From assembly GCF_036250755.1 (NCBI RefSeq), contig NZ_CP109583.1, forward strand, positions 5,789,501-5,853,500: a DNA stretch of 64,000 nt, in the 5' to 3' direction. The translations under genes and the position numbers were made by a program. Origin of the DNA: Streptomyces uncialis. GTDB lineage: Bacteria > Actinomycetota > Actinomycetes > Streptomycetales > Streptomycetaceae. This document shows, in pieces, positions 54,985 through 56,461 of this stretch. Every line of letters begins with the position of its first letter. Position 1 is the stretch's first letter. The notes under the pieces are model-generated. The model searched no databases and had not been told where the DNA came from. It saw only the letters and a list, made by a program, of their open reading frames with translations.

Positions 54985-55482
54985 TCAGGCCCGGGCGGGG
55001 GCGTTCAGCGCGGCGCAGCGGGCGGCGTGCATCGGCATCTCGGTGAGCCCGGGGAAGTACACGTGCAGGCTCACCGCCGGTTCGAGCGCGTCGTTGGCGA
55101 CCTCGTGGACGTAGCCGGGCGCGAAGACCCGCTGTGCGCCCGGCCGCAGGACGCGTTCGGTGTCGCGGGTGCGTTCGGTCAGTTCGCCGTCGAGGACGGT
55201 GAGCACGCCGCTGGAGCCGCCGTGGTCGTGCCGTCCGCTGTCCTGGCCGGGTACCCAGGACAGCAGCCACACCTCGTAGCCGGGGCCGGTGCGCAGGCGG
55301 TGGTACCAGCGGCTGGTCGCGTCGTAGCGCACCAGGTGCGCCCACGCGGCGCGGTCGGCGGCGATGGTCCGGGCGAGGCCGGCGAACTCGGCCACGGTGG
55401 CGGGGTGCTCGCGGGCGGGCTGGAGGAGGTGAGGCACCTCAAGGATGTCGCCCGCGATCTGGAGGTCGCTGTCGCTGTTCAT
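54985..55482 (-). CDS. Cysteine dioxygenase (cupin)
   Basis: 165 aa from ATG 55482. Iron-binding His are His85 and His87 in GQDSGRHDHGGSSGVLTVLD and His126 in FAPGYVHEVAND, the three-His facial triad of cysteine dioxygenases. The surrounding strands fit a single cupin barrel. The enzyme oxidises L-cysteine to cysteine sulfinate with O2 and thereby lowers cellular cysteine. It lies 58 nt upstream of fbiA on the same strand. A Cys-rich upstream ORF with a TTGACA box sits 141 nt before its start and is a likely cysteine-sensing leader. Confidence 0.92.
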   Translation of the reverse strand: MNSDSDLQIAGDILEVPHLLQPAREHPATVAEFAGLARTIAADRAAWAHLVRYDATSRWYHRLRTGPGYEVWLLSWVPGQDSGRHDHGGSSGVLTVLDGELTERTRDTERVLRPGAQRVFAPGYVHEVANDALEPAVSLHVYFPGLTEMPMHAARCAALNAPARA

Positions 55483-55623
55483 GGATGCGGTGGGTCCTCG
55501 GCGAAGAGTGGGGGGCGGGATGTGCGGCGGGGGCGGGGTGTCCGGATCACGGACGGGGGAACGCCCCGGGAAAGGCGTCGCCCGGGTACGGGCGAGGGGA
55601 GGGACGGCCGGAGCGCGGTGGGC

Positions 55624-55713
55624 TCAACAGCCGGAACAGCAACAGCTACAGCGCGAGCGGGCAGCACCGAAGGACCCGGGGCGGGTCACGGAAAGCGCCA
55701 AGTTCGCGAGCAT
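55624..55713 (-). CDS. 29-aa Cys-rich leader peptide upstream of cysteine dioxygenase
   Basis: ATG at 55713, TGA at 55624. The peptide starts MLANLALSVTRPG and ends RSRCSCCCSGC, giving five Cys codons in the last eight positions (TGT, TGT, TGC, TGT, TGT). It is preceded by TTGACA (55749-55744), placing the expected transcription start at or next to the ATG, so the mRNA would be leaderless. The stop lies 141 nt before the cysteine dioxygenase start. Mycobacterial polycysteine leader ORFs control sulfur genes by attenuation, which is the known precedent. Here the downstream enzyme consumes cysteine, so completed translation of the Cys run may favour expression. That sign is inference. Confidence 0.72.
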   Translation of the reverse strand: MLANLALSVTRPGSFGAARSRCSCCCSGC

Positions 55714-55720
55714 GCCCACC

Positions 55721-55749
55721 AGGCAACCGGCTCACACCTCGGATGTCAA
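55721..55749 (-). promoter_or_regulatory. Candidate promoter of the Cys-leader / cysteine dioxygenase transcript
   Basis: A perfect -35 TTGACA (55749-55744) is followed by a 17-nt spacer and a weak -10 TTGCCT (55726-55721). Transcription would start at about 55714, next to the ATG at 55713. Confidence 0.55.
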
Positions 55750-56170
55750 CCGCGCCCCCCTCCCGTGGCGGGGTTTCACCTGTTCCGGTCGCTCACCACG
55801 TCGGAAGGTTTGTCCACAGCCCCCACGGGATACACGCGGCAACACGGGGTCTGTCCAACGACGTGACGGTCCCGTGATCCGAATGTGATCAGTTTCGCTT
55901 CCTCCTTGTCACCGGAACGACACCAATCCGTCGTCCGTCTTTCCCTCATGAGGGACATGGCCCCGAACGGGCGGTTGACGGGTGTCATGGTTTATGCCGA
56001 TTTGAACACTTACCGTATACCCTTGGTTCCGCAGAGTGAATAAGGGACCCAATAGCAGATCCCGGCTTGACTCGCTCGGATCGGCACACTTGTAATTTCA
56101 CTCGTGTCGTTTCGACCCGGATAGGTAACGACCACATCACGGGGACGCAAAAACAGACGAGGGGCGCTAC
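55750..56170. promoter_or_regulatory. whiB: whiB upstream control region
   Basis: About 420 bp with lower GC than the surroundings and no gene. TTGACT (56067-56072) and TGTAAT (56091-56096), 18 nt apart, form a good promoter about 75-104 nt before the whiB ATG. A longer AT-rich stretch at 55980-56040 may hold a second promoter, as whiB has two in S. coelicolor. The flanking dyad acacttgt..actcgtgt overlaps the -10. Confidence 0.6.
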
Positions 56171-56461
56171 ATGACCGAGCTGTTCCAGCACCTGCTGGTC
56201 GAGGCAGTAGCCGTTGAGGCCGTCGAGGGCGTGGACGAAGAGGAACTCGGCTGGCAGGAGCGCGCGCTGTGCGCCCAGACCGATCCCGAGTCGTTCTTCC
56301 CCGAGAAGGGCGGCTCCACACGCGAGGCCAAGAAGGTCTGTCTCGCCTGCGAGGTCCGTTCCGAGTGCCTGGAGTACGCGCTCGCCAACGACGAGCGCTT
56401 CGGCATCTGGGGCGGTCTGTCCGAACGCGAGCGCCGCCGCCTCAAGAAGGCGGCGGTCTGA
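56171..56461 (+). CDS. whiB: WhiB developmental regulator (Fe-S cluster protein)
   Basis: 96 aa from ATG 56171. Four cluster-binding cysteines: Cys34 in RALCAQTDPESFFPEKGGST, Cys57 and Cys60 in KKVCLACEVRSEC, and Cys66. The G(I/V)WGG turn (FGIWGGLSERERRRLKKAAV) and the basic tail complete the family layout. The near-identity of the C-terminal 65 residues to WhiB of S. coelicolor, as I recall it, supports orthology; the head is longer by a VAVEAVEG stretch. WhiB works with WhiA to stop aerial growth and start sporulation septation. The AT-rich upstream region fits complex control. Confidence 0.93.
   Translation: MTELFQHLLVEAVAVEAVEGVDEEELGWQERALCAQTDPESFFPEKGGSTREAKKVCLACEVRSECLEYALANDERFGIWGGLSERERRRLKKAAV

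Follow-up and report, generated by a model that had tools for sequence, protein, structure and literature searches.

The cysteine dioxygenase (CDO) gene of the studied DNA is preceded by a short upstream open reading frame (uORF) that ends in a run of cysteine codons. Comparison of sequences indicates that this uORF is probably a conserved, cysteine-sensing leader with a leaderless predicted start. In our opinion, it is likely to act as a cysteine-responsive translational attenuator, which turns CDO on when Cys-tRNA is short; within this interpretation we infer the leaderless start, the stalling of ribosomes, the pairing in vivo and the sign.

If this is true, leaderless polycysteine attenuation reaches beyond the sulfur genes of mycobacteria to a catabolic-looking gene and spans a whole family of antibiotic producers, and the leader becomes a concrete, mutable RNA switch. 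The predicted sign calls the role of CDO in Streptomycetaceae into question. The data also suggest that rare synonymous codons of leaders may be retained for pairing, not for decoding.

The Leader and Its Gene

All the positions refer to the window, that is, the whole analysed stretch of 64,000 nucleotides. On the minus strand, the TTGACA box (55749–55744) is followed after 30 nt by the ATG of the uORF (55713), its TGA stop (55626–55624) and, after another 141 nt, the ATG of CDO (55482). The features of the locus are as follows:

55773..55788, minus strand: conserved element with the consensus CCGGATGAGGTGAAAC, about 23–24 nt upstream of TTGACA (sequence comparison)
55744..55749, minus strand: –35 box TTGACA, ending 30 nt before the uORF ATG, with the transcription start predicted at or beside this ATG
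55624..55713, minus strand: 29-codon uORF MLANLALSVTRPGSFGAARSRCSCCCSGC with a TGA stop (sequence and conservation)
55634..55646, minus strand: 5′ arm of the predicted long-range helix, GCTGTTGCTGTTC, within the Cys codons (pairing prediction)
55483..55623, minus strand: C-rich spacer of 141 nt between the uORF and CDO (74–302 nt in 123 distinct relatives)
55495..55499, minus strand: GAGGA, the probable Shine–Dalgarno sequence of CDO (sequence)
55468..55480, minus strand: 3′ arm of the predicted helix, GAACAGCGACAGC, CDO +3 to +15 (G of the ATG and the N-S-D-S codons)
54985..55482, minus strand: CDO gene of the type I family, 165 aa, the proposed regulated gene (PF05995)

The sequence-only reading had reported a 29-codon ORF with five Cys codons among its last eight behind a perfect TTGACA, and this was confirmed: the peptide MLANLALSVTRPGSFGAARSRCSCCCSGC carries five cysteines among its last eight residues and ends in RCSCCCSGC. 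The identification of the next gene, 141 nt on, as cysteine dioxygenase also stood, since a domain search assigned it to PF05995 (E 1.9e-19), the type I family. The solved structures closest to this protein by sequence carry the name cysteine dioxygenase, a kind of match by which the substrate is not settled. The cofD gene (PF01933) is located downstream of CDO, and whiB (PF02467) is located upstream in divergent orientation.

Of the 123 Streptomyces sequences, 116 have the element CCGGATGAGGTGAAAC 24 nt ahead of TTGACA, and its best match is at the equivalent place in 15 of 37 other sequences. It is a possible candidate for an activator site or, alternatively, a piece of the divergent whiB control region. 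It is a weakness of the proposed promoter that a TAnnnT –10 hexamer was absent at the expected place, where TTGCCT, situated 17 nt after TTGACA, is devoid of the A of this motif, and that a promoter scan gave no sigma-70 site. An intrinsic terminator was rejected for the leader region, and a search against Rfam gave no matches up to E 1 within 55000–56200.

Among the 673 ORFs of the window (at least 10 aa, one per stop codon, both strands) the uORF is the sole one with at least four cysteines in the last eight residues. The window contains six TTGACA boxes, and the CDO box alone has a Cys-rich ORF at 28–32 nt. The corresponding rule (an ORF of 10–60 aa with at least four Cys in the last 12 residues, 28–32 nt after TTGACA) found no match in 80 non-CDO loci (L111–L190; 260,055 bases, containing five TTGACA boxes only).

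Distribution of the Leader in Streptomycetaceae

A uORF ending in cysteines was found before CDO in 79 of the 80 named Streptomyces loci; the exception is L021, where the contig offers just 32 nt of sequence before CDO. A stricter rule (TTGACA, 26–34 nt, ATG or GTG, and at least three Cys in the last 14 residues) recognised 133 of the 137 CDO loci, and the misses were L021 with its contig end, L213 from Streptomyces, and L216 and L217 from other families. Alignment across relatives had been proposed in the sequence-only reading as a check of whether the Cys run is kept while the peptide context drifts, and the outcome was positive both in Streptomyces (133 of 134 testable loci) and in other genera. 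The Streptomyces locus L213 has kept TTGACA and has a short stretch before CDO with the Cys uORF missing, perhaps as a result of a natural deletion.

These 133 loci correspond to 123 distinct sequences, since some genomes are present twice. The start ATG and the stop TGA were found in all 123 of them. The distance from the box to ATG is 30 nt in 102 sequences, 31 nt in 19 and 29 nt in 2, and a leaderless start is predicted because this spacing stays within 29–31 nt in 123 out of 123. The uORFs contain from 3 to 7 cysteines, and the number of residues preceding the first of them, 22, is constant in 92 of the 123. In an extra set, partly from genomes counted already, the Cys-ending uORF was present in 30 out of 30 loci.

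A further 40 loci were fetched from Streptomycetaceae genera other than Streptomyces, and in 38 of them a uORF ending in Cys follows a box that matches in five or six of its six positions; the two without it are L300 and L314, the latter being a contig end of 158 bases. The 38 leaders start with ATG (37) or GTG (1) and stop with TGA (23) or TAG (15), and 35 of them are situated 29–31 nt after an exact TTGACA. With L239 counted, each of the 16 other genera sampled has at least one leader-bearing locus, and in the genus g123 the leader was present in all 20 newly fetched loci.

The distant sample comprised 40 CDO loci, of which 39 belong to other actinobacterial families and one, L268, is a divergent second copy carried by a Streptomyces genome. 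In none of them does a Cys ORF follow a box with five or more of the six matches; in four, a Cys ORF is preceded by a weak box. The leader is thus specific to Streptomycetaceae in this sample.

Conservation of Codons

Codons 2–22 of the uORF showed omega of 1.08 in a set of 89 sequences and 1.13 in a set of 34. The shifted frames gave 0.91 and 0.72 in the former set and 0.90 and 0.58 in the latter. Since omega is about 1.1 in the true frame and no lower than in the shifted ones, the peptide is not what selection keeps. Leader peptides differ widely between genera except for the terminal cysteines, with an LRRAASALC stretch common to several of them.

TGT, a rare codon, accounts for 513 of the 642 Cys codons in the Streptomyces uORFs, the other 129 being TGC. 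In the CDO genes themselves (L001–L080 without L021), the ratio of TGT to TGC is 0:80, and in five genes of the window it is 2:13. The uORFs of other genera gave 132:61 and those of 28 loci of g123 gave 98:66. In uORFs of 30 codons (n = 39), the run is mostly TGT-NGC-TGT-NGC-TGT at codons 23–27, and those of 31 codons (n = 49) have one additional TGT; where TGC of the run is replaced, it is usually by AGC or CGC.

Predicted Pairing of the Cysteine Codons with the Start of CDO

In the window, GCTGTTGCTGTTC (55646–55634) can pair with GAACAGCGACAGC (55480–55468) through 13 base pairs, including one G-U. When base-pair probabilities were averaged over the two sets (89 and 34 sequences), the Cys run was matched to the first CDO codons, at approximately 0.34–0.38 per pair, with CDO +3 to +15 mostly paired. 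Pairs in the best register were counted for 122 sequences (L215, having no anchor, was left out): 74 of these may form the full 13 pairs, 105 form 12 or more and 117 form 11 or more; these counts flatter the helix because the Cys run is repetitive, and a slide of the run by six columns still pairs 79% in comparison with 92% in register.

The mean duplex energy of the natural Cys run with the CDO start region is –36.2 kcal/mol. The Cys codons redrawn at 8, 50 and 80% TGT gave means of –29.7, –32.9 and –34.3, an all-TGT run gave –35.1, pairing nearly as well as the natural one, and permutation of the same codons gave –34.7. For each redraw scheme, none of 20 redraws was as strong as the observed mean, and single sequences surpassed their own controls in 70% of cases against all-TGT runs and in 82% against permuted runs.

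A permutation test for covariation in Streptomyces was not significant, as 198 of 500 permutations were as good when any pair was counted and 50 of 500 when Watson–Crick pairs were counted. It was based on a MAFFT alignment built blind to CDO and comprising 117 of the 123 sequences (without L200, L206, L211, L212, L214 and L215), and covariation is not seen there because the CDO starts vary so little. In fact, synonymous sites of CDO codons 2–6 and 8–13 hardly vary: Gly 11 is GGC in a fraction of 0.97, Ser 3 is AGC in 1.00 and Ser 5 is AGC in 0.97. Another 12 Gly columns of CDO are conserved; this fraction is 0.41–0.85 for 11 of them and 0.99 for one. The figures do no more than suggest a synonymous constraint at the CDO start, because Ser 82 (1.00), this one Gly and the codons for Asp and Asn vary just as little away from the start; Ala 31 there reaches 0.95.

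A different version of pairing was found in the genus g123, where 28 of 32 loci have a recognisable CDO start (L329, L343, L346 and L347 were left out). In five loci with ATGAACAGCGAY, the Cys run pairs as in Streptomyces through 11 bp. In 18 loci with ATGTACTCC, ATGTATTCC or ATGAACTCC, whose CDO is devoid of AACAGCG, the Streptomyces-type pairing is unavailable, and the best helix is formed by the Cys run and the Shine–Dalgarno sequence, namely TGTCCCTG/CAGGGACA or TGTTCCT/AGGAACA, with 6–8 bp. The Pro codon CCC is matched there with GGGAC in all six cases; of the 12 loci with the Ser codon TCC, 11 have GGAAC, and the exception, L322, keeps one G-U. The CCC/TCC exchange may be a single compensatory event, since the six loci with CCC seem to be close relatives. 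Five loci with ATGTACAGC have weak pairing only. Overall, native g123 duplexes are stronger than swapped ones in 24 of 28 cases (means of –24.2 versus –21.8).

In the other genera, where the CDO start codons are provisional, 25 of 37 loci were above the shuffled mean near the conserved IAGD codons, and in a wider stretch a helix clearly above shuffled spacers was obtained in 3 of 34 loci (L299, L319 and L321). A helix with the CDO start or its Shine–Dalgarno sequence is predicted in Streptomyces and g123, and these searches gave none in most of the other genera.

Proposed Mechanism and Its Sign

Ribosome footprints were modelled on 18 of 87 eligible sequences as the cost of opening CDO from –15 to +15. 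Without a ribosome, the median cost is 18.5 kcal/mol (range of 6.3–23.7), and with a ribosome at codons 6–19 it is 16.7–19.2 kcal/mol. The easing of CDO opening starts with a ribosome at codon 21, reaches 10.5–11.1 kcal/mol with the A site at the Cys codons 23–27 and fades only beyond the Cys run (11.5–11.7 kcal/mol at codons 28–30, 14.0 at codon 31 and 12.9 at codon 32). When the Cys codons were redrawn at 8% TGT, the cost of the closed state was 11.4, and the natural sequence was harder to open in 17 of 18 cases. These footprint and opening results follow from the position of the helix and so restate it, not being independent.

According to the proposed mechanism, transcription would start at the uORF ATG, giving a leaderless message. 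With plentiful Cys-tRNA, ribosomes would clear the Cys codons fast, and the freed codons would pair with the coding start of CDO and block initiation. When Cys-tRNA is short, ribosomes would stall on the Cys codons and cover them, the CDO start would stay open and CDO would be made. A stalled ribosome should free CDO because the Cys codons can pair with its start or, in g123, with its Shine–Dalgarno sequence. The sequence-only reading had held that a leader placed before this gene needs the opposite sign, with successful translation of Cys codons permitting expression. This was not supported: the Cys codons themselves would be the sequestering strand, so a stall is predicted to free CDO. The predicted sign, ON at low cysteine, is the ordinary one for amino-acid attenuators, and mycobacterial polycysteine uORFs reportedly have the same sign, with the downstream gene on at low cysteine.

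Some published data concern this sign. In S. coelicolor under H2O2, SCO3035 was increased 6.5-fold, as given in Table 1 of PMC4991794, and ssuABC, cysNDCHI, cysA, cysM and metNIQ were induced alongside it (PMC4991794). From gene numbering and order next to whiB, which is SCO3034 (PMC4255298), we infer that SCO3035 is the CDO of the leader locus. Its induction together with cysteine biosynthesis genes is compatible with the low-cysteine-ON sign. According to PMC4991794, none of the 28 H2O2-induced genes was still induced when hbpS-senS-senR was mutated, and the authors credited HbpS-SenS-SenR with the induction; the induction of SCO3035 may be transcriptional because of this loss, and SCO3035 does not appear in the table of predicted SenR sites of that paper. 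The same source describes the oxidative induction of S. coelicolor cysteine genes as NdgR-independent and ascribes it to HbpS-SenS-SenR, upon which cysteine-sensing leaders could form a further layer.

Switching on a cysteine-destroying enzyme when cysteine is scarce would be odd, if cysteine is the substrate. Either the main substrate of CDO is another thiol, the oxidation of which yields sulfite that the cell can use, or CDO has a part in redox defence, or the predicted sign is wrong. We tentatively suggest, as a possibility with the chances rather against it, that CDO of Streptomycetaceae is a sulfur-salvage or redox enzyme, not one of cysteine disposal, turned on by cysteine starvation, and that the sensing codons and the first CDO codons co-evolved as two strands of one switch, so that part of the N-terminus serves its own regulation.

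Alternative Explanations

A leader of the opposite sign, in which quick translation of the Cys codons at plentiful cysteine leaves the CDO start accessible or prevents termination by Rho, seems unlikely to us. It agrees with the metabolic logic of a cysteine-degrading enzyme; moreover, a steady stream of ribosomes could likewise melt the helix, a modelled ribosome at the stop codon eases CDO opening too, and the spacer between the uORF and CDO is C-rich (C 49%, G 24%), like a Rho site. However, the position of the stall lies on the predicted sequestering strand itself, and under H2O2 SCO3035 was up alongside genes of cysteine biosynthesis (PMC4991794). The same C-rich spacer could, when untranslated, be a Rho site whose exposure is set by the leader, resulting in attenuation of transcription through polarity. 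Rho was proposed for mycobacterial cys leaders by Seliverstov et al. (PMC1262725), and the change of SCO3035 was registered at the mRNA level (PMC4991794). Nevertheless, the spacer varies in length from 74 to 302 nt, and this explanation, which we regard as quite improbable, accounts neither for the choice of TGT nor for the predicted pairing with the CDO start or, in g123, with the Shine–Dalgarno sequence. Rho could act additionally, via polarity.

The remaining alternatives attribute the function to the peptide. A nascent chain sensing cysteine in the ribosome tunnel would agree with the number of residues before the first Cys, 22 in 92 of the 123 uORFs, but codons 2–22 are free of purifying selection (omega of about 1.1) and the peptides of other genera are unrelated. 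An arrest peptide was rejected in the absence of any conserved nascent sequence and has, in our estimation, a very small probability. An even smaller one is given to a micropeptide acting by itself, for example, as a metal- or redox-binding protein: its C-terminus is indeed rich in cysteine, but the constraint concerns the choice of codons, not residues, and the functional micropeptide was rejected because the number and spacing of cysteines vary and their context drifts.

Relation to Known Leaders

The attenuator proposed here resembles the short, leaderless polycysteine ORFs known from mycobacteria (Canestrari et al. 2020, Mol Microbiol 114:93, cited by PMC9031893, PMC13236596 and PMC9094748). 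Both have a run of Cys codons, a position upstream of sulfur genes, a leaderless start (predicted here) and regulation by the speed of ribosomes through the Cys codons (proposed here), and the mycobacterial-type trait of a terminal Cys-codon run fixed in position while its context drifts is present in our sequences. The differences concern the family (Streptomycetaceae), the target (CDO) and the peptide sequences. In mycobacteria, the Cys tract is said to pair with the Shine–Dalgarno sequence, whereas in Streptomyces the predicted pairing of the Cys run is with the first codons of the gene. The CDO leader thus appears, by its sequence features, to be a variant of the known kind of polycysteine attenuator with a new target and in a new family.

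Another comparison is provided by tnaC, an arrest peptide that senses tryptophan and is induced by excess of this amino acid. It likewise precedes an amino-acid-degrading enzyme, tryptophanase; in contrast to it, the CDO leader shows no peptide selection, and its predicted sign is opposite.

Cysteine leader peptides were predicted by Seliverstov et al. (2005) for cys operons of Mycobacterium and P. acnes and for cbs of B. longum (PMC1262725). As in our case, these have runs of Cys codons near the stop and no obvious terminator. In the sections of that paper available to us, they are confined to cys and cbs operons with no mention of a Streptomyces cysteine leader, and the word dioxygenase is absent from the paper (PMC1262725). 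Table 4 of a study of S. lividans start sites gives eight leaders, none of them for CDO (PMC8079986). Among the literature matches listed, with subscription papers and supplementary tables outside the scope, there was no description of the CDO leader.

Short Cys leader peptides of actinobacteria are also represented in NCBIfam by NF042934 (cis_reg_atten), NF042933 (leader_Ms5788A) and NF042936 (leader_Ms4527A). Two Streptomyces CDO leaders (those of the window and L035) and seven from other genera gave no NCBIfam match, and the same two Streptomyces leaders gave none in Pfam. Membership of the CDO leader in a known leader family was rejected, as none of these nine leaders scored above the cut-offs of NF042934, NF042933 and NF042936.

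Other Cysteine Leaders in Streptomyces

Leaders of a VDLxRVxSxxC family, above the NF042934 cut-off, precede cysI in the genome of the window and a cysA-type gene (L154). The supposition that the cysI operon has the same polycysteine leader as CDO was not borne out, since this genome has a VDLxRV-type leader there; this type was recognised in 3 of 15 cysI loci (L111, L112 and L121). In L121, which represents the same genome, the Cys leader MPSAGIPLVSRRHVDLGRVSSAICPAR is situated at about nt 700–830 upstream of cysI (sulfite reductase) and matches NF042934.

A leader with the core TKRRAVDLCRVAAMLCR or near it was found upstream of a DUF1416 (sseC-like) gene in 14 of 15 loci. These are L141–L154, with L153 from the genome of the window, in which the N-terminus of the leader differs. 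In five of the 15 genomes searched (L172, L176, L178, L179 and L180), a leader ending in VDLCRLASAIC or near it is located a few hundred bases 3′ of a Prok-JAB match.

The metNIQ leader of S. lividans, called Met-dependent in Table 4 of PMC8079986, ends in GARCMCRRMCAF and has three Cys codons. Because of these codons and the induction of metNIQ together with SCO3035 under H2O2, this leader may sense cysteine.
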